Shown in pieces: positions 235 to 42,832 of a stretch of DNA of 64,000 nucleotides. The position numbers and the translations under genes are program-made. Each line of letters starts with the position of its first letter. Position 1 is the first letter of the stretch. The notes under the pieces were generated by a model that saw only the letters and a program-made list of their open reading frames with translations, ran no database searches and had not been told where the DNA came from. Source of the DNA: Antedon bifida (Eukaryota > Echinodermata > Crinoidea > Comatulida > Antedonidae); contig OY727095.1 in the NCBI GenBank assembly GCA_963402885.1, forward strand, positions 21,643,001 through 21,707,000, written 5' to 3'.

Positions 235-722
235 TGTCGTAATGTGGGGTGTGGGGTTATTAATATGTATCCCCTTCAGATCGTAAAGAATCCAAATAAA
301 GTGAATACGATAAGTATACAATTTTACAACAGTTTAATAAGTAAGTACTTAACAGTATCAACAATTCTTTGTCTTGAAACTAAAACAATCCCAATATCGG
401 TAAAACTCCAACGATCTTGGTCTGTTATAACATTGAAAACATTGAAACTTTCCATCCAATAATCTACTTCAAATCTATGAAATCTTTTACAACCGATGTA
501 TATTTCGAACTACAGTAAACATCTTCACACTCGAATTCTATTTCCAACGTCGTATTATACCTCTTAAACATCAAATTAGTAACTAACAAGTAATATAAAC
601 ATCAATTATTACTCGGAAACGTCCACTCAACTCCATTCGTCGTGTTCATCTCCCCTCTCGTGCGTTCTCCTCATCCGCACAAAACATCTCAAATCCACGG
701 GGGCGCCCTTCACCTCCCGTCA
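235..722 (-). repeat. 3' LTR of the gypsy element
   Basis: This is a 488-bp LTR. Its terminal stretch CACCTCCCGTCA at 711-722 recurs at 3503-3514, the other end of the element, which defines the LTR edge. The outer end TGTCGTAATG directly follows the TTAC target duplication. A short open frame inside (244-462) is not considered coding. Confidence 0.85.
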
Positions 723-948
723 ATTTCCCTGTTTGAAAAACGTTCGTCCCCGAATGTACAATACAAATAAAAAAAAATGTTTCTCTGAAAACTTAACAAA
801 AAACAAATTTAAAAAAATGTCAAATTACTTGTCATCTATGTAACGTAAACCTCATAAATTATCTGCAATATCAACATAACAACTATTAAAGATAATTCAA
901 GCTAATCCCTAATACTCAAGTGATCTTCTAACAGAGTAGCATACAATT

Positions 949-3465
949 TTAATCATGAACCCCTACTGCCGATGTCGGCAAATGACATGGATTTCCATGT
1001 TTCCCCTTATTCAATCTACTTGATCGTCTCAACCCTTTATCCCTATCTTCAATATTCTTAACTTGATTTTCTATCTCCTTGTTCTCTACAGGAGTAATCA
1101 TATTGTCTATCTCTTTGTTTTCTACAGAAATAATCATATTGTCTATCTCTTCGTTTTCTACAGAAGGAGTAAACACTAATTGTAACAAAGCATCACCCTC
1201 GTCATCTCCTTCTTCACTACCCTCACTATTCTCATCTGATACAAATATAGGAAGATGATCTTCCAAGGCATCTGATTCCTGGCCACGTGGATCAAGGTGC
1301 AATTGACGTCGATTTACCCATTTGGAAATTCCACCCATTGCTGGTCTAACTTCATAAATATCCTGTTCTTCATTCATGTCTATAATCACATGCGTTACTT
1401 CTTGAAATTTATCTGATAACTTATGACGTCCAGTAAACGCATTTCGTTTCAACAACACTCTATTCCCAACCTCCAATTTAAAGTCTGTAGTGCGACCATC
1501 ATGTCGTGCGGCTTCTCGGTTTGCTGCCTCTTTAAGCCTGCTCGTCACTATCTCATGAGCTCTCTTTATCAACTTCTGTTGGGTTTGGATATGGTCCTCA
1601 TTCCAACTGTCATCTAGTCGATCAAGTAGGTGATCAATAGGTAATGATGGCGGTCTACCAAACATCAAAAAATAAGGACTGACTCCCGTTACCTTATGTG
1701 GAGTTGTGTTATACATATACAACAGATGCTTTAATAATTCTGGCCATTTTCGTCGCTCCTGTACATCTAGTGATCTTATCAGGCCACACAATGTTTTATT
1801 GAATCTCTCACATTGTCCATTGCCAGACGGATGATATGCAGTAGTGCGTGATTTACTTATCCCGTACATCTGACAAAGTTCCTTAATCACAGCATTTTCA
1901 AACGAACCACCCTGATCGGAATGTATTCTTGATGGAACACCGTAGTGTACAAACCAATTATCCCGAAGTGCTTTCGCCACTGTTAACGCTGTCTGATCCC
2001 GACATGGAATAGCCTGTGAAAATTTACTAAATGCGTCTGTCAAGGTTAGCACGTCCTCAAATCCCATTTTTCCTTTGTCTAATTTCATAAAATCAACCGC
2101 AACTATCTCCTGCGGACGAAATGCCAACAAATGCCGCATAGGAGGACGTACAGTGGGTGTAGGCGTCTTTGTTGTAACACATCTCAGGCAACGGTTAATA
2201 TATCTCTTCACATCATGATGCATACCAGGCCAAAAACATCGTCTCCTTAGCAATTCATAGGTCCTATTAACTCCTTGGTGAGCCCATTTGTCATGTACTA
2301 TTCCTAGCAAGGTTGATTGCAACTTCAAAGGCACTAATAATTGTTGGAACTCCCCAAAAATTGAATCAGGAATAATGCGATACAGCACACCATTACTTGG
2401 ACGAAACTTTGACCATTCTCTTATCCATCCCTTAAGACCAGGTACAGCTCGATCATAGTCTTGCCCCGTTTTCCAATTCGCATTCCACATTTTCCACACC
2501 TCTTGTAGTACTTCATCATTCTTTTGCATATCTGACAATTCTTCATGTGAAAATGACGGCAACACTGTTGGTACAACAGAATTTACTTCTATGGAACCAC
2601 CTTGAACTTTTGTCATCAAACAGGATGCGATCACGTTCAGGTCACTTTTTAACTCCGAGGAATTAACACAGGTATTACTTGGACAACGACTCAGTGCATC
2701 TGCACATTTGTTTGTCTTCCCGGGCCGATATTTGACTTCAAGATCATACAACGCCAACTGAGCGATCCACCTCATTTCGGTAGCTCCTAGATTTGCATTC
2801 TTCAAATGTGCTAATGGGTTGTTATCTGTCCATACAATGGTATGCTTGCCCTGAATGTACGGACCAAACTTATCGGCAACCGCCCATTTTAATCCTAGTA
2901 GCTCCAGCTTAAAGCTCGATAAATCAGGGTAATTTCTCTCTGACCCTCGCAGTCCCCTACTCGCATATGCGACTGGATGAATCTTTCCTCGTTCGTCTTC
3001 TTGCAAAAGACAGGCACCCAAGCCAAGAAGTGACGCATCTACTTCGATAATGAAATCCTTATCAAACTGCGGATATTTCAATACTGGTGCTGTAGTCAAT
3101 GCATTCTTTAACTTAGAAAAAGCTTCCTCTTGTTCATCACTCCACTTGAAAGAAGTCGCCTTCCCTGTTTGTTTGTTAGCCATCCCTGCAGTTACCGCGT
3201 GTAAAGGTGCTGCCATTGTTGCAAAGTTGCTTATAAAACGTCGATAATATGAGGCTAATCCTAAGAACGAGCGCACTTCTGAACAGGTTTTCGGTGTAGG
3301 CCACAACGTCACTCGTTCTATCTTATCTTGGTTGACAGAGATGCCTTGATCGGATATCACATGGCCTAAATAACTGACTTCTCGTCTTAATAAATCACAT
3401 TTTTTTCCTTTTACTTTCAGTCCATATTGCTGGAGTCTGGTTAACACTTTGTCCAGGCGAACCAA
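949..3465 (-). pseudogene. pol: Gypsy pol polyprotein, N-terminally truncated (RT-RNase H-integrase)
   Basis: This open frame of 838 residues encodes the end of a Ty3/gypsy reverse transcriptase (thumb motif FLGLASYYRRFI near 67-78). RNase H follows, with D143, E188 and D214 in VDAS, LELLGLKW and WTDN contexts. The integrase has an H2C2 zinc motif (H391, H396, C426, C429) and a catalytic core of D458, D517 and E553, which matches the D,D-35-E spacing. A C-terminal region rich in acidic repeats contains near-repeats of VENKEID. No stop interrupts the frame, but the catalytic palm of RT, protease and gag are deleted, so the copy cannot be autonomous. The long intact frame suggests a recent insertion. 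The ATG used is simply the first in frame; the original polyprotein started far upstream. Confidence 0.9.
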
Positions 3466-3535
3466 ATGTTCTTCATACGTACTAGAAAAAATCAGCGCCC
3501 TTCACCTCCCGTCATTACTATACTATCGTATATTC

Positions 3536-8174: not shown

Positions 8175-10226
8175 GTGTACAGCCACATCAAAACCAGGCA
8201 CTTGGTGAAATATTTTTTTTTTAGTTATTACTATAATTATATTACTCACAATATATCCTTCAAAATGGTGTTTGGATCATTTAAATCAAGGAAATATTCC
8301 CAGAGTTATAGCAATAAATGTATATAGCATTTATACAACAATTTACTTTTAATTACTGAGTAATTAACAGTCAAAGTTTAATGACAAATCAGACAGGAAG
8401 TTGCCCCATGCTGTTACAGATTGAACAATTAACACCTTAGCAACACTACCTTCTTGATAAACAATCATTCTGAAATTTGGCACACCTGTTCAATATAGTG
8501 TTTTCTGATATTCCTGAAAATTTCATCAAAATCCGAGGTGGTTATCATAGTTAATTATGACGATTACAAAATACCACTAATTTACGTAAAATCTGTCAAA
8601 TTCATTTATAATAGTGTAGTGTAAGAATAATACAGTAGGCCTACTAGTAGGTATTCAGAAGATTTCCTTAGCTTATTATTAGTTCTGAACAAATTAAAAA
8701 AAAAACAGCAAACATTTTATTAATGAACTTTATTCAATTTTATTTCTCTTTTTACTTTATTTTATCTGCTTTTTATTCAAAATGGCGCAGGGCACACAAT
8801 GTCTCTCGTTTCTGGTCGGCAAAATTCAGTTACCAGTATTTTATTTGTGAGTGATTTGTATTGCACTTGTTTTTACTGTGAATGTTATGTAATACATCTA
8901 TTGTTGAACCAGCACCTGGCCTGATCATGACAGATAGCCACACCCGATAGCTTGAACAATGTTTTTAAGCATGATGAATAACGTAAAATTTAGCCAAGGT
9001 ACCAGTATTTTATTTGTGAGGGATTTGTATTGTACTTGTTTTTACTGTTGTTAATGTTATGTAATACATCTATTGTTGAACCAGCACCTGTCCTGATCAT
9101 GACAGGTAGCCACACCCGTTAGCTTGAACAATGTTTTTAAGCATGATGAATAACGTGAAATTTAGCCAAGGTACCAGTATTTTATTTGTGAGGGATTTGT
9201 ATTGTACTTGTTTTTACTGTTTATGTTTCGCAAAATATCCATTTATTGACATGTACACACAATCCCCACACACCCGGCCCATCATTGGCATTTTAAGCAT
9301 AATGAAATTTAACCAAATTAAAATAAATAAAATAGCCTAGTAAGTAAAGCATTGCAGGAGGCTTATTATACTATAGAGATGAAAATTCTATCTTATTTAA
9401 ATTGGGCTAGGCCTAGGCCTTGTTGTTGTTATTACTAGCTAGCTAGGCCTATGCCATGCAGCCTATCTAGGCTAGTAGCCCAACGTAGTAGTACTGTAGT
9501 AGGCCTAGGCTTATTAGTAGAGTCAGGTCTAGCCTAGGCCTAGTCAACTCTTACGATAAATAACTTAGCTAGGCCCTTTACTTTAGTATGTTTATAACTT
9601 ATTGTTAGCAAGTATGAGTCAGTACACGTCACTTTAGTATTACTGTGTACAGTACTTAGATGAACTAAAAATATATTTTCCTCGACGCGAGCGTGTACTA
9701 GCATAAGATTTTTTGTTGACCTGGAATTTTCCATGCTGGATGGGTCATGTGACAAAATTAAACCAATCAAATCGCTTCTTTCAGCGTGTTCGTAGCAACA
9801 AGGCCGTTTTTGTTTACACTAAAGGGTTCTATAAAATCGGTTTTTATTGGTCTATATCGTACAATCTGTGACATCATTCGTTTATTTTTAGATTCATGAA
9901 AAAAATACCTATCGAATGATACCAAGCTTTCAGGGGTTATCTACAAAACTACGGCATAGGAATGACGAAAATAACTGCTTTTTTGTAACGAATTACCTCG
10001 TTCTTTCAATCGAAACACAAGGATAGAGGTTCAGATTTATGTAATTTTTACCACCTTTCCATTTGAATTAGTTAATAAGGCATATATTTTTGAAATCTAC
10101 GGTAAATTTCCTATCAGATAATGGTAAAAAAACAAAATGGTCAAAATATGAGTTTCACACATTCAAATGCATTTTACACAAATCCCTATCTAGCGACAAG
10201 CGCCTGGTTTTGATGTGGCTGTACAC
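8175..10226. mobile_element. Non-autonomous 2.05 kb inverted-repeat element, left arm only
   Basis: The ends are a 25-bp inverted repeat, GTGTACAGCCACATCAAAAC at 8175-8194 and its complement ending at 10226. It is flanked by the 4-bp duplication ATAT (8171-8174 and 10227-10230). The right arm carries the empty site near 48405 with a single ATAT, so insertion is well supported. The element has no transposase-like frame. Inside are a 170-bp tandem array (8833-9220) and an AGGCCT-rich tract (9400-9545). The superfamily is not recognised; a 4-bp target duplication excludes hAT, TA-mariner and TTAA elements. Confidence 0.88.
8833..9220. repeat. About 170-bp tandem repeat inside the 2.05 kb element
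   Basis: Units starting CCAGTATTTTATTTGTGAG begin at 8833, 9002 and 9174, giving periods of 169 and 172 bp. The third unit is partial. Each contains ATCTATTGTTGAACCAGCAC and a CCACACCCG tract. Confidence 0.9.
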
Positions 10227-17030: not shown

Positions 17031-18283
17031 ACAACAGACAGTACAGCTCAGGATACGAAAGCATCAGCGCCTCTGCATCATACAGCTTGCTCATAACAGG
17101 TGGAAACTTTTCCTCAACCTCTACTGGAACAAATGCCTCACAGTATTTAGGCAAAGTACTCAGGACTACAGATTTTGGTGCAATCAGTGCCAGCTGCTCG
17201 ACAAGGAATGCAAGCCCTGGGTCATTCATGACATGGAAAGCCGTTGTGCGTGTTTCCACTGATGTTGTAGTAGTTGAAACTGGTGGATCTGGGGTGCCCT
17301 CATCAATCGACTCATCTAGTTTTCTTTTTTTGGCCTTTGCTGATGAAACGTCAATTGAAGCCACTGGTTTTGCCACCACATACTTTCGGTTTGGTTCCAT
17401 CCAATAAGCTTTACTCACTGCAGATAACCCAAGGTGATAACGGTTTCTTAGAAACCGACTGTGAGTGCAACACCTTGAAAAATGAAAAACAATAGTCAAT
17501 AAAATAATATTAACAACAAATAATATTATTCCTTTACAGACATTATAAAAGATTGCATTGTGTTTATTAATTATACAGTACTATTAATAATTGTTTATTT
17601 CAATTAGTCGGTTTCCTGCTTATCAGTAATTAACCATGCTTATCCATCCATGGTCCGGATATAAATTAAAATAACTTCATGGTTGTACCATAAAATAATG
17701 GTTTTACATACATAAAAAAGGGCATAGGCTTTTCTCCAAAAAAGGTTATAACTTAATAAAATTATTAAATAAATAAGTAGTAGAATTGTATCCCTTCTAT
17801 CTAGCTAGGCCCAGTCTTACACAAGGCATAGGCTGTAGGCTACTACTGCTAATAATTACTAGCCTCCTCCTAGTTACTAACTAGGAGGAGGCGGAAGACC
17901 TACTACAACAAAGTAAATTCAATATTACTTACATCTCCTCTAACAACTTTAAAATCTGGTCTGTGTGGGGGACAAAAAATGCCCATATCCGACAGAAATC
18001 CATTAGCAAATTGATTGTAAGCCTCTGTAGATTTGTAGGCTTGAAAATTTTCAGCTGTGTATGGGCTTGGCGTAGCGATTAAGTATGCCATGATATCCAT
18101 CGCTGTGAGGTCCGGCAGACTGTCGATTTCGTGCGAAAATTCATCTTTATCAATCAAATATGGGTCTTTTCCAATACCTGATATTTTCTGAAGATATCTT
18201 CGACGTTCAGTTGTAGATAAATTATCAGTTATTGTTGATAAAACAATGTTTGGCAACGACGAACTAGCGGTGCCGACTGCCAT
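16996..18283 (-). pseudogene. SWIM/YqaJ-type recombinase gene of the ISL2EU-like element, truncated, left arm
   Basis: Exon 1 (18283 to 17933) starts MAVGTASS, carries TAENFQAYKSTEAYNQF and FLSDMGI, and ends at a GTAAGT donor. An exon at 17473 begins VLHSQSVSKKPLSPWVIC, a pattern found just before the SWIM zinc finger in these proteins. The next readable part (about 17424-16996) has YWMEPNRKYV, an AKKRKLDE basic patch and LYDAEALMLSYPELY, the lead-in to the YqaJ nuclease domain. The SWIM finger itself and the YqaJ catalytic core are missing, and the gene runs directly into the 3' end of the convergent transposase, so a deletion removed both C-termini or their spacer. YqaJ-type proteins are lambda-exonuclease-like. 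Confidence 0.7.
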
Positions 18284-20375
18284 TGTCTATACGTAAACAC
18301 ACAGTAAACACACTGACCACGCTGTACTAAAGAATATATATCACAAGAATGAGTATTCCGCGATTTTTGCATGAGAAATTTGTAACAGAGAGCTCCAGTG
18401 AGTGATGCCCGCCCTCATAAGGGCGGATGTATACATACTAAATAAGACTTGATTTAATAGATATTATACATGTCACATTAAATAGAATTATGATAATAGT
18501 TTTTGCAATTGTAAACTATTTTATAATACATATTTATTAACAAACTAGTGTACATTCACTTTTACAGACAATTATTTACTAACATGCTAAATTAGTTCAC
18601 AAAAAAAGCCCAACACAGCAACACCAAAAATCAACGTCACCCAGCATGGCCTATTCTTTACCATTGCCACGTACTACTCTACGCCCGGTAAATTAAGTAT
18701 TGTTTTTATGATATAAATTAGTATAAAATACATGTTATTAATAGGATACAATGTTAAATTTCATTAACATTTATTTGTTTGACCAGAAACATGTTAAATA
18801 TAGGAATATTATTAAACTATCCTTCGTGAAAACGCGTAAACACCTACACGCCCGGTCACGCTATCGTAGCGCCCGGTTGATGAAGCGAACTGTTTATACG
18901 GCAGTTTTTACTAAATAAATTGCATGAAACGAACAATTAAATATCCAAACAGCATTTAACATGATGTTGGCATGTAGTTGATAACATTTTTTATCATGAA
19001 AATACTACCGGTGGTCCAGCCTTTGATTAGTGAAACTGTCACAAAAAGTTGTATACATCCCAGATACATCCACACTTATGGCGGCGCCCTACCACATGGA
19101 CAATATTACTGTTACAGGGAAAATCGCGGAATACTCATTCTTGTGATATATATTCTTTGGCTGTACTCAGAGTTTGCTTGTCTACCAGAAGCAACTCGAG
19201 TGGAAAATCATTGACCCGTGACATTTTGTAGTCACCCTATAGTACTATAGACTATATTTATATGCTAGAATCAGATAACCTAGATAGAGTCACGTAGCCT
19301 ACGTCAGTACAGTATAAAAAAAGTTAAAATTCAATTTACCAGTCAGTATTTTGTAATCTATTTTGCTTCTCCCTCAAATCCTCAGTTTCCATATTTTCTT
19401 CCTCATCTCCATTTGCTAAAGGCTCAAATTGATTTACAGACTGCATGCGCGAAACTGAGATGACGTCATGGTCATTTTCACGCTTCGGTGAATATCGGCA
19501 GTGGGTGGGGCATAGAATAATATTTTAAATTCTATTTTTTTAACATTTTTGTCAAACATACACAAAAAATAAAAGCACCCATTTTGTTAAGAATATTAAT
19601 TATTATGTAATTTTAATATCAGAAACTCAAAATCATATACTCAACTCAAGTTCATCTTTAAGGCATCCTGTAATTGCCGATTTTTCGCTGTTGGATGTGG
19701 TTGAAATAAAATAACCCATTTTCAAGCGCACAATTTTTAAAGTTTGATGTGCAAGTGTGTCATTATTTTACATTCCTAATTTATCAAAAATGAAAGAAAT
19801 ACATCATAAAAAGTATAAAGAACGATAATCAAGTGCAAAAGGTATTTCTAAGCTGCGTACGGTCAAAGTGCGCAAAAGCGAGTGCGCAGCGCAAATTTTT
19901 TTGAAAAATATGAAATGCTTAAAAATGACAATGTCCAGAAATTGTAGACTAGCCTAGAAAGTTGATTAGAAATTGATTAGAAAATCGGTTAAGCAATGTA
20001 CCCCTATTAATGGAATAAGCCACGGAGGTCACCATCTAAACAATGCATACAATATATAAACAATGCAAGCAAGCTTGGCGTTCCATACTAAATTCATCCC
20101 GGTCAGGTCTAGCCTAGGCCCTACATCTGTAAAGATAGTGTGGGCTTCCTATGCCCCGTTGATCCTTGGACCTTCATACCTGAAACTCTGACCACAAACT
20201 AAAGCAACATCCAGGCGTAATTCTTGTAATGTACACGTGAGCCTCTTCCAATTCGTCATGTTCCAGGGTACGCGGTGCGTGATTGGGAATAGGCCTAGAC
20301 TTCTTGTTTGATGTGTTGTTGTGGACGACTCAAACACAATTGCCGCCCGCCGTGGTGTGGTGGTCAAATGCAGCA
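17961..20375. other. 2.4 kb block present only in the left arm
   Basis: The right arm joins the equivalents of 17960 and 20376 directly (40593/40592). The block holds the first exon and upstream end of the YqaJ-type gene (to 18283), a GC-richer CCCGCCCTCATAAGGGCGG hairpin at 18408-18426 that may be the element end, and about 1.8 kb of AT-rich sequence in which I see no gene. Loss from the right arm is more likely than gain on the left, because half a gene exon is included. Confidence 0.8.
18284..20247. other. Gene-free stretch between ISL2EU-like element and transposase gene
   Basis: No supported gene. The sequence includes CGCCCGGT motifs around 18850-18880, a cAMP-response-like TGACGTCA at 19460 and generally AT-rich DNA. 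Confidence 0.5.
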
Positions 20376-21009: not shown

Positions 21010-24000
21010 ATGGAAAAGCATGTTATAAATCTAAATTACTTGTGTCGTATATGTGGGAACAGGCTAAAACCTTATGCCTCCAGACAAGGAGCCAAGGAAA
21101 TCAGGCAGTTTGCTTGTTCCAACTTTCAACCACAATTTTCAACTGCTTTAAACATCAACATTTTGCAAGATATTGATGGTGTTCACCCCAAGTATTTCTG
21201 TCTGCTGTGCATGGGATATTTGCAAAAAAACAAACCATGCAATGTAACCCAGTGGCAACCCCATCATAGAACAGGCGACTGTAGTACATGTGCCCAATTT
21301 GAGACACAGAAAAGTGGCGGTAGACCGAAGAAGAAGAAAAGAGGTTTAGCAACTGAAAGCTATAAAATAAAACATGCAACTACCGTTGCAGTGGAAACAC
21401 ATTTTAAAAACTTAAAGCCTCCGTTTCTTCAGCCAATTTCTGGCTCCTTTCATGCTTCAAGTTCACTTGATAATTTTAAATGTGGTATTTGTAAACTTGT
21501 TTCGTCTTTTCCTGTGGTTACATCTTGCCATCACGTTATGTGCAAGTCCTGCATTCAACCGTTGTATATGGATTGTGATACTGTCCAATGTTCTGTATGT
21601 AATGTACCTGTGCATTTTTCATGTATTAACGATGTTCTGTCAATCTTTGCTGAATGTTATCTGTCTGTTCCTGTTGTATGTAAAAGATGTCGTACTGTAG
21701 TGAAATGTAAATGTATCAGTGACCATGTATGCCTGCCAGACCACTGTTATCTATCATCGCCAACTAACGTAACATCAACGCCAGGACTCCTCGTGATCAA
21801 TTACAACAAACGAACCAAATAGATGACATATTAAACCATCCACTTGGTACTCCAGTAACGCCACTGATGGAGGAAGTTGGTCTACACATCCTAAAAGCAA
21901 AATTGAAACAGTCGAACAACAACACAACTGAGTTTAGTGTTAAAGGAAAGGTACTTTTTTAATGGTTATTACTGTATAATCAAATTGTTAATTATTACAA
22001 AAAACTTAAAACTTAAATTCAATAAAAACTAACAAGTTTACTTAATTTTATTACTAAAAATAACACCAACTATAGAAATGTATTACCTTTTTTCAAAAAC
22101 CAGAAACTAAAAACAATGGCGATGCCGATACCACGAAAAAGCTCATCTGATGCAGGCTGGAGAACTGTTCACAACAGAAGTAAATTCATCGATGATGTAC
22201 GGTCGGCAGTAAGTGGAGGAGATTCAGAAGCTCAAAGAGTTGATGAGTTTTCTCAATTTAAAAGTCCGATACGTCTTCCAACTGGTGATTTGCTATCTTT
22301 AAAAACAAATCTTGGCCTAACATGGAAAAAAAACAGAGAACTGAAATGGTAAATAACAAATCAACATTCTGCAGTATCTGAATCGAACACCCTCAACATT
22401 ATAGTTTTTAATATTTTATTTTTTTTTTAAAGCTGGCTAAAAAAATATGGTGTCAGCACAGAATGCGAGGCAAAAATGAGGCACCAAAAAAACATCATCA
22501 TTAACGACAACATCATTTCTGAATACGTCCCTATGGCACATTCCTGCAATGACACAGGGGATACAATCATCCAAAAAACTGCATGTGTTTCTGTTGCAAG
22601 TCTCAACAAAAAAATCTGCCAGCAATATGATGAACTAGAAAAGTAGGTTTTTTATTTGCTTTCATTAACAGATTTAATTTAATTACTGAATTTTAAAAAA
22701 TGAATCAAATAAATATCAATACCTTTTACAGATTAAATCTTCTAACATGGCACGATGGCCACATCCCATCAGATGAGATGTGGGTAAAGATCGGAGGGGA
22801 CAAGGGTGGTGGAAATTTCAAGCAGATGCTTCAGCTTTGCCATGTACCACGCCCCAATGCCCAAAATAATACAATCATCATCAATTGCTTTGAGGCCACC
22901 GATTCCAGTTTTAATTTAAGAACTGGCCTCAAGGATATCTTGCCTCAACTCGAAGAGCTGCAAAATTCCACATTAAGGTAAATATACCATTTATCTGTAA
23001 AATTAAAATATTGCACAAAATTGTACAAATATATTTGTGTAAATTAAGACAAATTATTAACTGGCTTCATTTTCTTAATAGGGGAAAACAAGTCAAAGTG
23101 TTCGTATTCGGTGACTACGAGTATTTGGCTCGTATATATGGCCTAACGGGTGCAAACGGTAAACAAACAATATATGTATTACAGGTACAGTACTGCAATT
23201 ATTAGCAATTAATAAATGATGGATATTTGAAAGCAAATGTGTATTAAATTTTGTTTTAAAGGACGACATTACTGCTTGTGGTGCCATGTAACCAAAAAAC
23301 ACAAATCCCAACTCCCAAGGACATTGGACACTCTGAAGAAAGACTTGGACAGGTTCAGAGAGGCTGGTGGTAATATTTCAAAAGCAAAGAACTACAATAA
23401 TGTAATTGCCCGCCCTTTGATACAAGTTCCCATTGACCATGTAGGTATTAAAACATTATTTTCTAAAAGCTTGCATGACTCTTAAATTTCATAAAACAAG
23501 GTAATTATTTTGCTCCCACACTTTTTTAAATAGGTATGTCCTCCTGGCTTACATATAAGCCTAGGCTTATATTTAAAAAACTTCAACAGTCTGGAGTCAG
23601 CTTGCCAGCAACTGGACGACATCATTTTAAAGTCTACTGATAGTGCATTGCTTCAAAACAGTCTCGAAACTCCTACCAATATCCCCACATTCTTAAAGCA
23701 CGTTGCCATGTCAAATCAAATCAAAGACCTAGAAAACAAGGCAGAAGACATACGCAATGGAATAGACCAACTTAAAGATTACTTAAGTGTCTTTATGCTA
23801 TTGGGTGACACCAGTGGAACAACTGAGAGTATAATTAGCGAGATTCAAAGCCAAGAGGCACAAGAGGCACAAGTTGTAAGTTTAAATCAGACAATTAGAA
23901 AACATTTCTATACAGGTGGCATTTTTCCTTAGAATTATTTTATTTTCTAACAATATATTTATTGGTTTTAGAGAGCTGAAGCAGTCCATATTTCTAAAGA

Positions 24001-25067
24001 CTTACCTGAAGTGAGAAAAGGGCCTTTGGTGGCAAAACTTGATGATGTGCTGAAATCCTTCAGGGTTAACAGACAGGCATATCACGGCAAATCGTTTGTC
24101 GGTAACCATATTCATAAGTGCTGCAAGGTATTTCATTTATGTTATATAATTATAGTAATGTCATTGTCATTTGACTTTTATACTATACTATTCATTTTAT
24201 CATTGAATTATTTACTTTCAGCCTGAAAATATCAAAACACTTATGACAAAAATATGCAAGACTGCAATAGAACTCAGCCCAGAAATTAAAGAGAATGTTG
24301 TCAGTGTCACAACAAAATATGGAAGATTATTTAATTTGTTTGGGAACTGCCACAGGCAATACAATTGTGCCTCATTTTTCACAGAGGAGATGATATTGAA
24401 GCTTGGTAAAATCAATACTTATTATTTTTCTACTAAAATCTCAACTTCAGCTGCTCCACTAAATTCTTCGATGAGTTTCTTTCAGCACCAACAATATTTT
24501 TGTAAATATATTGAGTTAAATTTGCCTGGATGTCTGGCCTGTCTCTCTAGCCTATCTGTCTGGCCTGTATCTCTAGCCTGTCTGTCTGTCTAGCCTGATA
24601 GCCTGTCTGTCTAACCTGTCTAGCCTGTCTGTCTAACCTGTCTAGCCTGTCTAACCTGTCTAGCCTGTCTGTCTGTCTAGCCTGTCTATCTAGCCTGTCT
24701 GTCTATCTAGCCTGTCTGTCTATCTAGCCTGTCTGTCTATCTAGCCTGTCTGTCTATCTATTACATTTTTTTTTTTGTCTCTGAAGAATCAGACATTGAA
24801 GATTATGTGCAGTTCTTTCGGAAACACTTTCAAGAAACAGAGCCTCCCAAGATGCACATTCTGGAAGAACATGTGTCTGAATGGATAAGAAGATGGAAGT
24901 TCGGATTGGGATTCCATGGAGAGCAGGGAGGGGAGAGCATGCACGCTCAGCTTAACACCCTCAAGTCCAACATCCGTGGATTCAACGATGACCTTGGTAT
25001 TCTGACCAGTGCAATGAAGGAACATTGGGTGAAGACATCGCCATCCATGTTGGCAGCCAAACCCTAA
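21010..25067 (+). pseudogene. RAG1-N-terminal-like DDE transposase gene (N-RAG-TP type), frameshifted left copy
   Basis: The coding exons I infer are 21010-21950, 22104-22348, 22433-22642, 22732-22977, 23082-23158, 23262-23440, 23534-23875, 23972-24127, 24222-24405 and 24787-25067, all bounded by GT-AG and consistent in phase. A one-base loss near 21783 relative to the right arm shifts the first coding exon, which would end the protein early at residue 270. The rest is open and near-identical to the right copy. The domain content is described under 35918-39958. An upstream ATG-less TTG is in frame, but the ATG at 21010 is the plausible start. This copy probably cannot make a full transposase. 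Confidence 0.85.
24530..24762. repeat. CTGTCTGTCTAGC microsatellite in last intron, left arm
   Basis: A degenerate array of CTGT, CTAGC and CTATCTAGC units lies within the last intron of the transposase gene, ending in poly-T shortly before the acceptor at 24785-24786. It differs in length from the right arm by about 18 bp. Confidence 0.95.
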
Positions 25068-25097: not shown

Positions 25098-25103
25098 AAC
25101 TTT

Positions 25104-25141
<38 letters not shown>

Positions 25142-25371
25142 ATATTTAATGAGGGTGATCCATCCAGCAATTGCTGATCATTAGGGACCCTCAGAGGTTC
25201 ACAATACAAACATATACACAAGATGCTCTACATAAACAAAGTCTTATTACAAGTCTTTGGGAGTGGAGTTGTAATTTGGTCCTTAGAAAAAATCCTGACA
25301 TGTGACGGGACTTGAACCCAGGACCCTTGGAGTGGCAGCCAAGCATCATAACCACCAAGCCACAACTCCAC
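25098..25371 (-). mobile_element. tRNA-derived SINE, left arm only
   Basis: On the minus strand the element starts at about 25371 with a tRNA-like head: an A-box-like TGGCTTGGTGGT (25362-25351) and a B-box GGGTTCAAGTCCC (25317-25305). It ends in a poly(A) tract (poly-T at 25101-25138 on the plus strand). The right arm has no such insertion and reads straight through the hairpin repeats, so the SINE landed inside one hairpin copy of the left arm. Target duplications are short and unclear (perhaps CTTTTC/CTTC). Confidence 0.85.
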
Positions 25372-28290: not shown

Positions 28291-30089
28291 TATAAGAATT
28301 TTTTTAACAGTGTAGGCCCTATATATCTTGTACTGGGGAAGGGTTAGTGTGTGTTGCATGAGAGAAAGCTCTGCAATTTTATTTCTGACTATTTTAGTTT
28401 TTGTGTCAGGATCAGCTGGAGAGAGAACCTCACAAACATATTGCTAACTCATTGAGTTGAACCAAACATGACACTACTAAATAACACTTAAAACTGGGTC
28501 GATGAAATAAAACATATACAGGTATACCTTAAATTAAATATGTTACACAATGTATGTTTTGCTTAATCTTATGCCTTTAGTGTACTGAATTTTTTAAAGT
28601 CATAAACGGTTGAGAAAAAAACAAACATGGATGTATTTATATATATTGTTTTTCTAGCTGTTTTACTTTATCGTTTTGATTTAGCTTTTCGTTTTTTTTT
28701 TGTATCTCTATTGAGATCCAGCCACTGATACCCACATCATTGTCATTGTTTCATTAATTTGCCTTTGGATTTATATAAATTAAAACATAAATTAAATAAG
28801 TTCTTTGTATGTTTTCTCTTTATTGTGAATAACGTTTGAATGTATTTTTTCTTGTTATTTGTAAGAGGCTATATAACTTGATTCGGCTGTTGAGAAAAAA
28901 AAACAATACTGTATTACATGAAATGTAAAATAAAACATGATATGATTTAACTGTTGATGGCCTATAACATAACATGTTAGGGCCTATATAGTGTAAAATA
29001 CGATATAATTTACAGACACATAATAAAAGCTATAGGCTAACTACAGCAGCAGTTTTTTGTTTGTTTTTCTCAAACACAGTGAAATACAAAACAATTGGCA
29101 CAATGACACGAACAATAGAAGCCTCAACAAGCCTGGCACACCCAACGGTGTGTGACCGAAACGGCCGCCGACTGAAACGGCCGCCAACATTTTCTATGGG
29201 ACGCCAATACCGCCGCAGCTAACAAGCCAATGCAGTATTATAAACGTACAGTAAAGCCTATGAAACCATGATGGAGAAAAAAAATAAATGAAACCAACCA
29301 ATTATTATGTTTAAGAATAAAATCAAAGAATAAACGTATTTTTTAGTTAAGTTTTTATAAAAATAATGTTTATTATAATAATTCACCATTCTAAGCGCAA
29401 TATAAATTTATTTAACGTATTCAAACAAATACTGTATCAATTATTGAAGTTAAAATAGGCAAAACAAATACAAACGTACTGTAATAATATTAATATATGT
29501 TATGTAGTAAAGCTATTTATATTGTTCAAAGAATCAAAGAATAAACGTATTTTTTAGTTACGTTTTTATAAAAATAATGTTTATTATAATAATTCACCAT
29601 TCTAAGCGCAATATAAATTTATTTAACGTATTCAAACAAATACTGTATCAATTATTGAAGTTGAAATAGGCAAAACAAATACAAACGTACTGTAATAATA
29701 TTAATATATGTTATGTAGTAAAGATATTTATATTGTTACTTATTAGGTCTATAGTAAATTCAATAACATATGAAATTGTGGAATAATATTCAAACATTCT
29801 AACGTGCAAATAAAGCACTTTAAATGAAGTTGTGTCCTATTGTTTTACTATTATGTGTATCAACAACACCTTCGCGGGGCTAATTGTTTTGAATTTATGT
29901 TAGATGTTAGCGCATTAACCGCGCCTAGTCACATTATCTGTGGAGCTCCGCGTATCGGCGTCATCTAACATTACATAAAGACAATAATCTATTATTTGCA
30001 CAGAAATGCCACGCACTTTTTGGTGCTTGCGTTTTCCTTTAAAATGGAGTTTTTTCCAATTGAACATTACTTTTTATCAAATTATCAAC

Positions 30090-30452
30090 ATGAACGCTTG
30101 TATCGAATGCCAACAACCTGTTATCGAGAATCAAGAAGGACTGCTATGTGAGGAGTGTGATAGATGGCAACATCGCGAGTGTGATAGTGGAGTGACGCGA
30201 GCAGAGTATTTAAGAGGAGTGGAGAATGGTTATATTGAATGGAGTTGCCGACAATGTTCTGAAAATGATCAACCGATGCCAGATGAAATCGATGTGTTTG
30301 CCGCCGACCTGGGACAGTTTGTTGAGCCAGAAGTACATCAGGAAGTCGAGATGGAGAATCCTTATCCACAGCCGAATCCTGTGGCAGGAAATGACGACGA
30401 GAGTGACGAAATCCAGTACGTAGTGGAGGAAGGCACATCGGCGAAAGGAAAG
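30090..30452 (+). CDS. PHD-like zinc-finger first exon, Mutator-like transposon type, left
   Basis: From the ATG at 30090 the exon encodes MNACIECQQPVIENQEGLLC, then ECDRWQHREC and a WSCRQC end. The C4HC3-like ligands are C4, C7, C20, C23, H28, C31 and two cysteines of WSCRQC. An acidic tail follows, and the exon ends at a GTAAGG donor (30453). Such an N-terminal finger with a TRAEYLRGVENG-like linker is, from memory, typical of invertebrate proteins carrying a MULE transposase domain. The remaining exons are absent. An in-frame upstream ATG at 30006 adds 28 hydrophobic residues and is less likely to be used. Confidence 0.55.
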
Positions 30453-30657
30453 GTAAGGGTGTATTTTATATAGCTCTTTTCATAGTTCAGAATTTATTTT
30501 TGTTATTCATATCATTCATCTTTTATTTCGGAAAAAAAAGTAGATCCGTCAAGGATATAAAAGGAATTGATTTAATTTACATTCTTATTGTTATTTTAAA
30601 TAATTATACCGTATTAGATAGTATTTGTTTCAGTGCTTATACATGTACATATATACA
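30333..30657. other. Spacer at palindrome axis
   Basis: These 325 bases are the only unpaired sequence between the arms. They hold the end of the left PHD-like exon (to 30452), its GT donor and the start of an intron. The right-arm copy of the exon breaks off where it meets this intron sequence, so the axis lies inside a gene. The short spacer would allow intrastrand cruciform or hairpin formation. Confidence 0.9.
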
Positions 30658-35636: not shown

Positions 35637-35793
35637 GTATAGTACTAGGATTTAGCAGCTATTGTCGAATTATATCTATTGTGTAAGTGGTTGAATTGCA
35701 TTTGTTCAGTAGTAGTAGTACTAGTACATTGCATTGTTGTGAACACATAATAAATACACACTATTGCTTAACAATCTCTTTCGGTTTTTGGGT

Positions 35794-35886
35794 AGCCCTG
35801 AAAAGGGCTGTTTGGTTTGAGATTGTTTGCGGTTTGTGGTAGCCCTGAAAAGGGCTGTTTGGTTTGAGGTAGCCCTGAAAAGGGCT
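35794..35886 (-). terminator. Three histone-type 3' hairpins after the transposase stop, right arm
   Basis: Three identical hairpins (35871-35886, 35841-35856, 35794-35809) follow the transposase stop by 32 to 124 bases on the sense strand. Each is preceded by CCAAACA and followed by ACC, and a purine-rich ACCGAAAGAGATTG follows the last one. The array has no SINE interruption. If used, the mRNA would end like a histone message, without poly(A), and be limited to S phase. That is inference; the sequence match is directly visible. Confidence 0.6.
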
Positions 35887-35917
35887 GTTTGGTTTGAGTT
35901 TTTTTTTCTTTTTTTCT

Positions 35918-38900
35918 TTAGGGTTTGGCTGCCAACATGGATGGCGATGTCTTCACCCAATGTTCCTTCATTGCACTGGTCAGAATACCAAGGTCATCGT
36001 TGAATCCACGGATGTTGGACTTGAGGGTGTTAAGCTGAGCGTGCATGCTCTCCCCTCCCTGCTCTCCATGGAATCCCAATCCGAACTTCCATCTTCTTAT
36101 CCATTCAGACACATGTTCTTCCAGAATGTGCATCTTGGGAGGCTCTGTTTCTTGAAAGTGTTTCCGAAAGAACTGCACATAATCTTCAATGTCTGATTCT
36201 TCAGAGACAAAAAAAAAATGTAATAGATAGACAGACAGGCTAGATAGACAGACAGGCTAGATAGACAGACAGGCTAGATAGACAGGCTAGACAGACAGAC
36301 AGGCTAGACAGGTTAGACAGGCTAGACAGGTTAGACAGACAGGCTAGACAGGTTAGACAGACAGGCTATCAGGCTAGACAGACAGACAGGCTAGAGATAC
36401 AGGCCAGACAGATAGGCTAGAGAGACAGGCCAGACATCCAGGCAAATTTAACTCAATATATTTACAAAAATATTGTTGGTGCTGAAAGAAACTCATCGAA
36501 GAATTTAGTGGAGCAGCTGAAGTTGAGATTTTAGTAGAAAAATAATAAGTATTGATTTTACCAAGCTTCAATATCATCTCCTCTGTGAAAAATGAGGCAC
36601 AATTGTATTGCCTGTGGCAGTTCCCAAACAAATTAAATAATCTTCCATATTTTGTTGTGACACTGACAACATTCTCTTTAATTTCTGGGCTGAGTTCTAT
36701 TGCAGTCTTGCATATTTTTGTCATAAGTGTTTTGATATTTTCAGGCTGAAAGTAAATAATTCAATGATAAAATGAATAGTATAGTATAAAAGTCAAATGA
36801 CAATGACATTACTATAATTATATAACATAAATGAAATACCTTGCAGCACTTATGAATATGGTTACCGACAAACGATTTGCCGTGATATGCCTGTCTGTTA
36901 ACCCTGAAGGATTTCAGCACATCATCAAGTTTTGCCACCAAAGGCCCTTTTCTCACTTCAGGTAAGTCTTTAGAAATATGGACTGCTTCAGCTCTCTAAA
37001 ACCAATAAATATATTGTTAGAAAATAAAATAATTCTAAGGAAAAATGCCACCTGTATAGAAATGTTTTCTAATTGTCTGATTTAAACTTACAACTTGTGC
37101 CTCTTGTGCCTCTTGGCTTTGAATCTCGCTAATTATACTCTCAGTTGTTCCACTGGTGTCACCCAATAGCATAAAGACACTTAAGTAATCTTTAAGTTGG
37201 TCTATTCCATTGCGTATGTCTTCTGCCTTGTTTTCTAGGTCTTTGATTTGATTTGACATGGCAACGTGCTTTAAGAATGTGGGGATATTGGTAGGAGTTT
37301 CGAGACTGTTTTGAAGCAATGCACTATCAGTAGACTTTAAAATGATGTCGTCCAGTTGCTGGCAAGCTGACTCCAGACTGTTGAAGTTTTTTAAATATAA
37401 GCCTAGGCTTATATGTAAGCCAGGAGGACATACCTATTTAAAAAAGTGAGGGAGCAAAATAATTACCTTGTTTTATGAAATTTAAGAGTCATGCAAGCTT
37501 TTAGAAAATAATGTTTTAATACCTACATGGTCAATGGGAACTTGTATCAAAGGGCTGGCAATTACATTATTGTAGTTCTTTGCTTTTGAAATATTACCAC
37601 CAGCCTCTCTGAACCTGTCCAAGTCTTTCTTCAGAGTGTCCAATGTCCTTGGGAGTTGGGATTTGTGTTTTTTGGTTACATGGCACCACAAGCAGTAATG
37701 TCGTCCTTTAAAACAAAATTTAATACACATTTGCTTTCAAATATCCATCATTTATTAATTGCTAATAATTGCAGTACTGTACCTGTAATACATATATTGT
37801 TTGTTTACCGTTTGCACCCGTTAGGCCATATATACGAGCCAAATACTCGTAGTCACCGAATACGAACACTTTGACTTGTTTTCCCCTATTAAGAAAATGA
37901 AGCCAGTTAATAATTTGTCTTAATTTACACAAATATATTTGTACAATTTTGTGCAATATTTTAATTTTACAGATAAATGGTATATTTACCTTAATGTGGA
38001 ATTTTGCAGCTCTTCGAGTTGAGGCAAGATATCCTTGAGGCCAGTTCTTAAATTAAAACTGGAATCGGTGGCCTCAAAGCAATTGATGATGATTGTATTA
38101 TTTTGGGCATTGGGGCGTGGTACATGGCAAAGCTGAAGCATCTGCTTGAAATTTCCACCACCCTTGTCCCCTCCGATCTTTACCCACATCTCATCTGATG
38201 GGATGTGGCCATCGTGCCATGTTAGAAGATTTAATCTGTAAAAGGTATTGATATTTATTTGATTCATTTTTTAAAATTCAGTAATTAAATTAAATCTGTT
38301 AATGAAAGCAAATAAAAAACCTACTTTTCTAGTTCATCATATTGCTGGCAGATTTTTTTGTTGAGACTTGCAACAGAAACACATGCAGTTTTTTGGATGA
38401 TTGTATCCCCGGTGTCATTGCAGGAATGTGCCATAGGGACGTATTCAGAAATGATGTTGTCGTTAATGATGATGTTTTTTTGGTGCCTCATTTTTGCCTC
38501 GCATTCTGTGCTGACACCATATTTTTTTAGCCAGCTTTAAAAAAAAAATAAAATATTAAAAACTATAATGTTGAGGGTGTTCGATTCAGATACTGCAGAA
38601 TGTTGATTTGTTATTTACCATTTCAGTTCTCTGTTTTTTTTCCATGTTAGGCCAAGATTTGTTTTTAAAGATAGCAAATCACCAGTTGGAAGACGTATCG
38701 GACTTTTAAATTGAGAAAACTCATCATCTCTTTGAGCTTCTGAATCTCCTCCACTTACTGCCGACCGTACATCATCGATGAATTTACTTCTGTTGTGAAC
38801 AGTTCTCCAGCCTGCATCAGATGAGCTTTTTCGTGGTATCGGCATCGCCATTGTTTTTAGTTTCTGGTTTTTGAAAAAAGGTAATACATTTCTATAGTTG

Positions 38901-39958
38901 GTGTTATTTTTAGTAATAAAATTAAGTAAACTTGTTAGTTTTTATTGAATTTAAGTTTTAAGTTTTTTGTAATAATTAACAATTTGATTATACAGTAATA
39001 ACCATTAAAAAAGTACCTTTCCTTTAACACTAAACTCAGTTGTGTTGTTGTTCGACTGTTTCAATTTTGCTTTTAGGATGTGTAGACCAACTTCCTCCAT
39101 CAGTGGCGTTACTGGAGTACCAAGTGGATGGTTTAATATGTCATCTATTTGGTTCGTTTGTTGTAATTGATCACGAGGAGTGACTGGCGTTGATGTTAAG
39201 TTAGTTGGCGATGATAGATAACAGTGGTCTGGCAGGCATACATGGTCACTGATACATTTACATTTCACTACAGTACGACATCTTTTACATACAACAGGAA
39301 CAGACAGATAACATTCAGCAAAGATTGACTGAACATCGTTAATACATGAAAAATGCACAGGTACATTACATACAGAACATTGGACAGTATCACAATCCAT
39401 ATACAACGGTTGAATGCAGGACTTGCACATAACGTGATGGCAAGATGTAACCACAGGAAAAGACGAAACAAGTTTACAAATACCACATTTAAAATTATCA
39501 AGTGAACTTGAAACATGAAAGGAGCCAGAAATTGGCTGAAGAAACGGAGGCTTTAAGTTTTTAAAATGTGTTTCCACTGCAACGGTAGTTGCATGTTTTA
39601 TTTTATAGCTTTCAGTTGCTAAACCTCTTTTCTTCTTCTTCGGTCTACCGCCACTTTTCTGTGTCTCAAATTGGGCACATGTACTACAGTCGCCTGTTCT
39701 ATGATGGGGTTGCCACTGGGTTACATTGCATGGTTTGTTTTTTTGCAAATATCCCATGCACAGCAGACAGAAATACTTGGGGTGAACACCATCAATATCT
39801 TGCAAAATGTTGATGTTTAAAGCAGTTGAAAATTGTGGTTGAAAGTTGGAACAAGCAAACTGCCTGATTTCCTTGGCTCCTTGTCTGGAGGCATAAGGTT
39901 TTAGCCTGTTCCCACATATACGACACAAGTAATTTAGCTTTATAACATGCTTTTCCAT
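35918..39958 (-). CDS. RAG1-N-terminal-like DDE transposase, apparently intact, 953 aa
   Basis: The coding exons are 39958-39017, 38863-38619, 38534-38325, 38235-37990, 37885-37809, 37705-37527, 37433-37092, 36995-36840, 36745-36562 and 36198-35918. Phases agree and no stop is seen. The N-terminus follows vertebrate RAG1: C12/C15, HPKYFCLLC (C64, C67), WQPHHRTGDCSTC, a basic patch at 103-112, and a RING with exact C3HC4 ligands C158, C161, C173, H175, C178, C181, C194 and C197, then a Cys-rich tail. The core has VKIGGDKGGG (D489), FGDYEYLARIYG (D559), a CLWC zinc-like pair (578-581) and FHGEQGGESMHA (E906 or E910). I infer D/D/E catalysis. The combination resembles N-RAG-TP elements reported from Aplysia, which have a RAG1-like N-terminus on a core other than Transib. 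Terminal inverted repeats were not found. Confidence 0.85.
36218..36452. repeat. GACAGACAGGCTA microsatellite in last intron, right arm
   Basis: Partner of 24530-24762, complementary in sequence, with a slightly different unit count. Confidence 0.95.
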
Positions 39959-40592
39959 ATTCAATTTTAATAAAAGAATGACGTTTTACACAGTGAGGCC
40001 TATACTAATATTAATATATTACTAGTATTATTTTGTTAAAGTACAGGAAATAGTCTTCTACATCGACCTGAAATAAAAAAAAAATTAGAATAGGCTCAAC
40101 ATCAAGAGTGCATTTTAAGTTTTATTTGATAATAAATAAATAGTATCTTAGAATTGAATAATGACAAAAAACACTGAAAATTTAATTATTACAGAAATTA
40201 TATGCCTTGTATATTAATTAATGTTTTTATAATGATACTTTTGGTAATTTGATATGCCTATACTAAAATCGTTTTTTATAATTGTTTTTGCTCACTAAAA
40301 ATTTTGAAAATTTCACTAAGTATGTATTATTATATTAAAAGTAAACATATATTTAAAAAAAATAAAATTATGAATTCTTACCGTAGTTATACGACTTTTA
40401 ATTGTCTTTTTCGTCGGCGCGATTGTTTGTTTATCGTTGCCAAGTAACGAAACTACGAAGGTATGTTTACGCCCTCTATTGATGAGTGACGTAACCAGGA
40501 AGTATCGAATTTCAGGCTTTTGCATAGCGAGCGAACATACGTGGGTACCGCACCACCACCACCCCACAACAACACACACACGCGGGCTCAGC

Positions 40593-41586
40593 ACCAGATT
40601 TTAAAGTTGTTAGAGGAGATGTAAGTAATATTGAATTTACTTTGTTGTAGTAGGTCTTTCGCCTCCTCCTAGTTATAGTAACTAGGAGGAGGCTAGTAAT
40701 TATTAGCAGTAGTAGCCTACAGCCTATGCCTTGTGTAAGACTGGGCCTAGCTAGATAGAAGGGATACAATTCTACTACTTATTTATTTAATAATTTTATT
40801 AAGTTATAACCTTTTTTGGAGAAAAGCCTATGCCCTTTTTTATGTATGTAAAACCATTATTTTATGGTACAACCATGAAGTTATTTTAATTTATATCCGG
40901 ACCATGGATGGATAAGCATGGTTAATTACTGATAAGCAGGAAACCGACTAATTGAAATAAACAATTATTAATAGTACTGTATAATTAATAAACACAATGC
41001 AATCTTTTATAATGTCTGTAAAGGAATAATATTATTTGTTGTTAATATTATTTTATTGACTATTGTTTTTCATTTTTCAAGGTGTTGCACTCACAGTCGG
41101 TTTCTAAGAAACCGTTATCACCTTGGGTTATCTGCAGTGAGTAAAGCTTATTGGATGGAACCAAACCGAAAGTATGTGGGGGCAAAACCAGTGGCTTCAA
41201 TTGACGTTTCATCAGCAAAGGCCAAAAAAAGAAAACTAGATGAGTCGATTGATGAGGGCACCCCAGATCCACCAGTTTCAACTACTACAACATCAGTGGA
41301 AACACGCACAACGGCTTTCCATGTCATGAATGACCCAGGGCTTGCATTCCTTGTCGAGCAGCTGGCACTGATTGCACCAAAATCTGTAGTCCTGAGTACT
41401 TTGCCTAAATACTGTGAGGCATTTGTTCCAGTAGAGGTTGAGGAAAAGTTTCCACCTGTTATGAGCAAGCTGTATGATGCAGAGGCGCTGATGCTTTCGT
41501 ATCCTGAGCTGTACTGTCTGTTGTCATGTACTCAATTGGTAATGTTGAACTTAAAATTGAGTACTTTTGACGGACACCACCGATGA
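40593..41586 (+). pseudogene. SWIM/YqaJ-type gene remnant, right arm, first exon lost
   Basis: Partner of 16996-18283. Only the last codons of exon 1 (PDFKVVRGD, 40598-40620) remain, because a deletion joins them to sequence matching 20376 onward of the left arm. The VLHSQ exon (from 41083), the YWMEPNRKYV segment and the pre-YqaJ segment are kept. The gene is doubly inactivated here: no start and no nuclease core. Confidence 0.7.
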
Positions 41587-42832
41587 CCCTCTCCACATGA
41601 ATTCGTAAATGAGCAATTTTTCTTATGGTTTCCACCTCAAGAGCAGACAGCTGTTGTTTTCCCTTCTTAAAAGCAGGAATCTTTGCTTCGCAACCATAAA
41701 ACCCAGCATCATCTTTTATGTCAAAACCTCGGTCGGCAAGGATGACATCCCCAGGTAGCAGATAATCAAAAAAATCTGACGTCAATGTTATGGTCTTATC
41801 TGTACCTCTGCCTCCCCATGCTGCAGACAAATATGAAATTTACCTGCATGGAGTGCAGCCAATTAAAAACTTTACTGTATTGTGGTGCTGGTGCTTGTAG
41901 CTGAAAAACAGTTGTGCCCTCGCTTCAAGACTTGAGGGCCGCTCGCAAAAAACCTCAAAACAGTCAATTATTACTGCTACCTTCGACTCCAATGCAATTC
42001 GAAATTGCATTGGCATGGTTTTCCACAACACCTCCCTTTCTGGCCATACAATAAGCTCTTGTTCAGCATAGACATGGCATCCAGTCTCGTATTAAAAACT
42101 CGACACTGTTGAGTCACTTATATGAAATCGGTACGCAATGTCCTGATTTCTAAGGTTCAGTCTAAGTTTGAACAGTACAATTAGTAACTGCTGGAATCGA
42201 CTTACTGATGTTCTACTCGGGAATCTTTTTTTTAACTAGTTCAAAAACCAACATCAATACTGCAAATGAAGGCAACCCTGTGTAGAAATGAGTTCGCTCA
42301 TTGTCATTTTTAAAAGTTAACTCTGTTATTGGCGACTCCTGTAACAAGGCCTGTGACTGGGCCTGTAAGACATCTATGTCAGCACAACACATAGTAGAGT
42401 TTGGTGTTGATATGTCAACACAGACACATATGTTTTCTACAGGAGAAACATCTTCCATATTAGCCTCACCTAATTGGAGATCTAACAAAACTTCCACAGC
42501 AATACATTTCTTTTTTTTTTCAGTTCTTTTTTGTGACCTTTCGTATCGCTCCTTATCACGTTTTGCGGTGTGATCATCCAGGTCCAGCCTGCCCATGTCT
42601 TGAGTTGGAGCCCAACATTAGCGAACGTATGTACACTACGTTGCCCCTCGCGGTACTCGTTCCACAATGTTGTAAGTCTCTCGTTTGCCACCTTGCTGCC
42701 TGTTCGTGTTCTTCTCAATTCATCTCTGTATATCATCTCTACATTGATCGATACTGTCGAATTTCTTGGATGGTTACTAAATGTGAACATAAGCCGATTT
42801 AAAAAGGCATGTTTAACCGATTTATCATGCAC
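41525..42832 (-). pseudogene. ISL2EU/IS4EU-type DDE transposase, broken, right arm
   Basis: Partner of 15730-17030 with the same core motifs and overall break pattern. The core has one extra codon pair (KHQHHNT for KHHNT), and an A insertion in the run after VFELVKK (near 42230) ends the helix-turn-helix frame earlier than on the left. Both copies are inactive. Confidence 0.8.

Follow-up and report, generated by a model that had tools for sequence, protein, structure and literature searches.

The locus and its gene

The 64,000 nucleotides of DNA from the crinoid Antedon bifida analysed here (contig OY727095.1, positions 21,643,001 to 21,707,000; 'the window') carry on the minus strand, from 39958 to 35918, a spliced transposase gene whose ten coding exons, as modelled from the sequence, encode a protein of 953 amino acids with no internal stop codon. 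With high confidence, we assign this gene as a full-length transposase of the Chapaev superfamily (DUF1280; CMC/Transib/RAG1 group) with a Chapa zinc domain and a RING finger in front of the catalytic core. The region is duplicated by inversion, with a second copy of the gene in the opposite arm, and three histone-type stem-loops follow the gene (table 1).

All nine introns begin with GT and end with AG, and the reading phase matches at each exon junction. External backing for the exon model comes from P0001, an uncharacterised protein of 951 residues from the crinoid Antedon mediterranea, which aligns end to end with the window protein (47% identity, 100% query cover) and is free of gaps at all nine junctions; the gap columns in this alignment are gaps in both proteins, caused by a third row. 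An earlier note on this DNA had claimed precisely such a stop-free gene of ten coding exons and 953 amino acids, a claim that these data bear out. A non-coding eleventh exon, with a donor near 40390 and an acceptor near 40068, appears plausible when the splice signals are judged by eye.

Table 1. Features of the transposase gene, its second copy and its immediate flank, in window coordinates.
Feature	Position	Strand	Basis
Coding exons 1-5	39958-39017, 38863-38619, 38534-38325, 38235-37990, 37885-37809	minus	splice sites, phases, open frame
Coding exons 6-10	37705-37527, 37433-37092, 36995-36840, 36745-36562, 36198-35918	minus	splice sites, phases, open frame
RAG1-type N-terminal zinc motifs (Chapa domain), C12 to C94: C12/C15, C64/C67, C91/C94	39677..39925 (derived by hand from the exon model)	minus	Pfam, profile, hhalign
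C3HC4 RING finger, residues 158-197	39368..39487	minus	motif alignment; predicted fold
Zinc finger after the RING, C224, C227, H239, C241, at the position of the RAG1 C2H2 finger	39236..39289	minus	alignment A4, 1rmd superposition
Exon 4, strongest DUF1280 (Chapaev transposase) match	37990..38235	minus	PF06918 E 2.4e-13, frame 37986-38240
Codon of D489 (GGDKGGG), likely first catalytic residue	38166..38168	minus	42/42 family proteins; aligned with newt RAG1 D640
Codon of D559 (FGDYEYL), likely second catalytic residue	37852..37854	minus	40/42 family proteins
Codon of E910 (HGEQGGES), likely third acidic residue, behind the H884-x4-H889 zinc pair	36050..36052	minus	39/42 family proteins
Degenerate tandem repeat of AGACAGGCT type, within intron 9	36224..36436		repeat scan
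Three tandem histone-mRNA 3' stem-loops (35871-35886, 35841-35856, 35794-35809) and downstream purine-rich stretch	35770..35891	minus	Rfam, loop pattern
Second gene copy in the other arm of the inverted duplication, exon 1 frameshifted	21010..25064	plus	window self-comparison

A Chapaev core and the RAG1 fold predicted for its close relative

The family assignment starts from Pfam DUF1280 (PF06918), equated with the Chapaev transposase in PMC3985635, which matches the whole window protein at residues 366-543 (E 6.5e-16, 59 bits against a cut-off of 25) and likewise all 42 members of the family set, i.e. 41 database proteins and the window protein (the core search itself returned 39 proteins). 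The motifs GGDKGGG, FGDYEYL and HGEQGGESMHA start at residues 487, 557 and 904, in the core, where the earlier note had placed them. The signature residues D489, D559, C578/C581, L639-H640, H884/H889 and E906/E910, which include the C(2)C, LH and H(4)H motifs (names as in PMC4079192), are all present, each counted residue being kept in 39-42 of the 42 proteins (L639 in 90% or more, from a separate count). E906, an alternative third acidic residue, is kept in 40 of them. Spacing agrees with newt RAG1 as well: 19 residues separate D559 from the CxxC pair, as they do D748 from C767 in newt RAG1, and H884 is 26 residues from E910 compared with 25 in RAG1. The pairing of D559 with its RAG1 counterpart follows this spacing, hhalign setting D559 a few residues off.

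At the level of Pfam sequence families no RAG1 core was found, the whole protein matching at E 0.01 only DUF1280, RAG1_imp_bd and a RING model. Since a sequence search with the 42-protein profile also missed RAG1, the core was compared by fold. The fold predicted for the close relative P0001, from an alignment with 37 of the 41 database proteins (P0003, P0028, P0039 and P0041 were dropped), is that of RAG1 and Transib and is RAG1-like across most of the length of the core. A non-RAG1 core, in which the three motifs replace those of RAG1 and Transib, had been proposed earlier; neither part is supported, as the core is a Chapaev/DUF1280 DDE core with this predicted fold in its close relative, and GGDKGGG, FGDYEYL and HGEQGGES correspond in order and spacing to the catalytic positions of RAG1. 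Taken as a whole, the window protein is distantly related to RAG1 and does not consist of a RAG1 head placed on a foreign core.

The N-terminal zinc region and the RING finger

For the N-terminus, profile comparison gives a match to RAG1 that exceeds chance. Pfam RAG1_imp_bd matches the exon-1 frame at residues 47-122 (E 5.7e-8, 33.1 bits) and the whole window protein with 28.5 bits, the cut-off being 23.3 bits; in the PDB, full-length RAG1 is recovered with a three-sequence profile at E 2.2e-11 (RAG1 residues 102-374), and a 12-sequence profile reaches newt RAG1 at E 1.8e-27. Exon 1 as a lone query is weaker, with a RING protein as top match (1.6e-5), a RAG1 fragment at 0.0014 and full-length RAG1 at 0.054. 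The label 'Chapa' is taken from the description in PMC4411706.

The exact C3HC4 RING claimed in the earlier note is confirmed. None of the RING models of Pfam reaches its own cut-off in either the exon-1 frame or the whole window protein; the predicted fold of the region matches the RAG1 dimerization domain 1rmd, on a par with the RING proteins TRAF and LNX, in a superposition that covers residues 141-243. The four residues of the following zinc finger are invariant in all 12 proteins of alignment A4, a chosen set of the window protein and 11 of the 41 database proteins, from which P0022 (with a RING-like stretch) and P0041 were left out; the exon-1 alignment combined exon 1 with 17 of the 41. 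The window protein shows the N-terminal zinc motifs and the RING with following finger of RAG1 and RAG1L; it has a Chapa-type zinc domain and then a RING ahead of the core.

Relatives, trees and the origin of the N-terminus

Among the RING-bearing relatives are proteins of Hydra, Ptychodera, Patiria, Asterias, Diadema and Antedon, as well as P0036, which from the style of its identifier we take to be from the sponge Sycon; a scan of viral contigs found no relative. When the N-terminus of newt RAG1 was compared with the 42 family proteins by hhalign, nine gave a match with an E of at most 10, namely Hydra P0030 (43.1 bits), Ptychodera P0019 (36.0), Patiria P0006 (35.4), P0016 (28.7), Antedon P0001 (27.4), P0036 (19.0), Ephydatia P0022 (18.7), Diadema P0011 (17.4) and, in ninth place, the window protein (15.8). 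This ranking is uneven because many database entries are without an N-terminus, and its reference is a single newt RAG1.

In the core tree, support is 98/99 for a set of five echinoderm members that includes the window protein and 95/98 for a set of four of Hydra type. The N-terminal tree recovers the Hydra-type set with 99/99 and groups four of the five echinoderm rows with 83/84. The starred support level is attained by three of nine inner branches in the core tree and one of ten in the N-terminal tree, which also joins newt RAG1 to P0036 (86/83), a grouping flagged by the program as two long branches meeting. No well-supported conflict between the two trees was found, support in the N-terminal tree being thin, and there is thus no sign of a swapped N-terminus.

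These results bear on the proposal of the earlier note that, of all candidates, the gene is the strongest for a surviving relative of a separate element of N-RAG-TP type that donated its N-terminus to RAG1 at a later stage; on this view, its core would have no kinship with that of RAG1. N-RAG-TP of Aplysia is described at second hand in PMC8355894. The N-terminus is clearly related to that of RAG1, as such a history would have it, but the core has catalytic and zinc positions that agree with RAG1 in order and spacing and, in the close relative, the predicted RAG1 fold, and the trees show no well-supported conflict. Moreover, amphioxus and mollusc RAG1L transposons already carry the same zinc motifs and RING (PMC7204232), so that a separate donor is not required, and the window protein, as the lowest of the nine matches, is not its strongest candidate relative. 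We therefore regard a donor of this kind as very improbable. Common descent of the fused protein, as published, best accounts for the N-terminus that both have.

Element ends, second copy and activity

Several observations weigh against the Chapaev reading. The assignment rests on Pfam, motifs and published descriptions rather than on a tree with Repbase Chapaev sequences; RAG1_imp_bd was found in just 8 of the 42 family proteins at E 0.01; and the structure was predicted for the 47%-identical P0001 in place of the spliced window protein. Compared by sequence, the core is marginally similar to RAG1 (hhalign P 0.01), and RAG1 is absent from the 26 PDB matches of the 42-protein core profile at E 10. 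Terminal inverted repeats or a target duplication were not found within about 3 kb on either side of the gene: a scan for repeats with 3-5 bp duplications gave no CAC-ended and three CA-ended candidates, compared with means of 1.0 and 4.2 in 30 shuffles of the right flank, which also gave better best scores than the real flanks. Finally, the 64-kb window contains one locus only, duplicated by inversion. The ends may be decayed, lie farther out or be visible only by comparing other copies.

Among 107 inverted-repeat pairs between 33.0 and 43.5 kb, the 25 longest are mostly A/T-rich and 71-86% complementary; an A/T-rich pair that flanks the gene (35119-35150/40343-40374, 78%) was not accepted as element ends.

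A domesticated, Chapaev-derived host gene, kept for a host function such as DNA cutting or a RING ligase, would account for the missing terminal repeats and would fit the open frame and the full-length counterpart in A. mediterranea. Against this, six nonsynonymous changes and one synonymous separate the two gene copies, one of which has a frameshift, a pattern that resembles relaxed constraint, tiny as these counts are; in addition, two or more diverged members occur in Antedon (P0001 and P0008), as a transposon family would lead one to expect. Domestication thus seems unlikely to us. It is quite possible, without being our expectation, that the transposon of which the gene is part is dying or dead and lost its ends to decay or later insertions, a sub-case of the Chapaev reading and not an alternative to it. 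The undetected ends, the frameshifted second copy and flanks with other mobile DNA (the DDE_Tnp_4 transposase at 41459-42091, 280-bp repeats and a tandem array) all point this way, but the window copy is still open and its nine introns are intact.

Of the overall picture drawn in the earlier note, a spliced and open transposase-type gene with a RAG1-type zinc and RING head therefore stands, whereas the foreign core, the donor role and the recent activity are not supported. As to the last, the gene is open, but no terminal repeats were found within about 3 kb, and the sole second copy seen is frameshifted and part of the inverted duplication.

Proposed mechanism

For the Chapaev transposase of the window we infer chemistry, element ends, ligase activity and mobility by analogy. 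Its homology suggests a cut-and-paste DNA transposase that would act as a multimer. In an RNase H-fold core, D489, D559 and E910 (or E906) would, with metal ions, cut the element at CAC...GTG-type ends, which would then be joined to the target with a 3-4 bp duplication. As in RAG1, the CxxC and Hx4H pairs may bind one zinc in the core, and the RING and adjoining finger probably serve dimerisation. The RING could also act as a ubiquitin ligase, an activity stated for RAG1 in PMC4411706.

Histone-type stem-loops behind the gene

The stem-loop region lies about 30-125 nt past the stop codon of the transposase, on the same strand, and its last loop is followed by a purine-rich stretch that resembles a histone downstream element (HDE). 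The three loops match Rfam RF00032 at E 5.9e-7, 8.8e-5 and 0.0071; a default Rfam scan reported none of them because each scores under the 34-bit gathering score. A loop-pattern search finds all three with no mismatches; with two more in the other arm, the window has five such matches where 0.01 would be expected, the copies being tandem and duplicated and thus not independent. In that other arm, a 274-bp arm-specific insert (25098-25371), which by eye is similar to a short interspersed element (poly-T start, tRNA-like stretch), sits behind the stop codon of the second gene copy and inside the first stem-loop.

A histone gene as source of the stem-loops was considered and rejected: 21 short histone peptides, searched in six frames with 1-2 mismatches, revealed no histone remnant in the window, the one match, in another frame of exon 1 and repeated in the other arm, being due to chance. 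Judged by titles, no literature on histone stem-loops with transposons was found. The stem-loops may terminate the transcript or may be a remnant next to which the gene landed. That a RAG1-family transposase mRNA ends in a histone-type 3' end appears doubtful on the sequence at hand; if it did, the transcript would carry no poly(A) tail and would be produced chiefly in S phase, coupling transposition to replication, and it would be highly unusual for a spliced gene to end in this way. The stem-loops are an oddity separate from the identity of the transposase.

Surrounding region

The arms of the inverted duplication (1-30338 and 30651-53279, centre near 30.5 kb) consist of blocks that are 97.9-100% identical, interrupted by arm-specific insertions, e.g. 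at 236-3514, 8175-10219, 17964-20375 and 25098-25371; the structure is a genuine palindrome or else the product of an assembly that fused two haplotypes. Immediately upstream of the gene, DDE_Tnp_4 transposase fragments (41459-42091, minus; Pfam E 4.3e-23 and 4.2e-10), with matching DNA in the other arm, apparently interrupt a divergent open reading frame (ORF) with a basic stretch (41083-41532, plus). As a second gene of the element this ORF gained no Pfam match (frame 41083-41586) and no PDB match; one promoter region could serve both it and the transposase gene. Farther away are a Gypsy-type retrotransposon ORF with reverse transcriptase RNase H and integrase in a single-arm stretch (949-3501, minus) and, near the centre of the duplication, a short ORF with a PHD-like finger (29988-30473, plus; E 7e-5, 23.2 bits against a cut-off of 24).

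Significance and comparison with known systems

The gene adds a full and open member to those Chapaev proteins in which a RAG1 zinc and RING head is paired with a DDE core; it makes a good new instance of a type already published and is not the donor of a piece of RAG1. The predicted RAG1-like core of its relative lends support to the published view of a head and core fused as early as the common ancestor of Chapaev, Transib and RAG1, with no late swap. The window gene is a practical candidate for studying a RING-bearing Chapaev transposase by biochemistry or structure determination.

Transib, known from the HzTransib structures, is without a RAG1-type N-terminus according to PMC4411706 and PMC7204232, unlike the window protein. 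From RAG1L of ProtoRAG and the protostome RAGL transposons (PMC7204232), the window protein differs by bearing DUF1280, and in contrast to RAG1L it matches only the N-terminal one among the Pfam RAG1 families. With vertebrate RAG1 it has in common a colinear arrangement of N-terminal zinc motifs, RING and following finger and, in the close relative P0001, the predicted core fold, at about 14% identity in the core superposition, whereas the stretch from LH to Hx4H comprises 244 residues in the window protein and 142 in newt RAG1. Chapaev elements have CAC...GTG ends and 3-4 bp target duplications, neither of which was found within about 3 kb of the window gene, a comparison drawn from published descriptions. 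P0001 of A. mediterranea has the same domain order as the window protein, with Pfam RAG1_imp_bd and DUF1280. The gene also corresponds to the Chapaev elements that carry a Chapa domain and a RING, of which two subgroups are described in PMC4411706: the window protein shares with them the Chapa-type zinc domain, the RING, the zinc finger and a DUF1280 core with C(2)C, LH, H(4)H and DDE.
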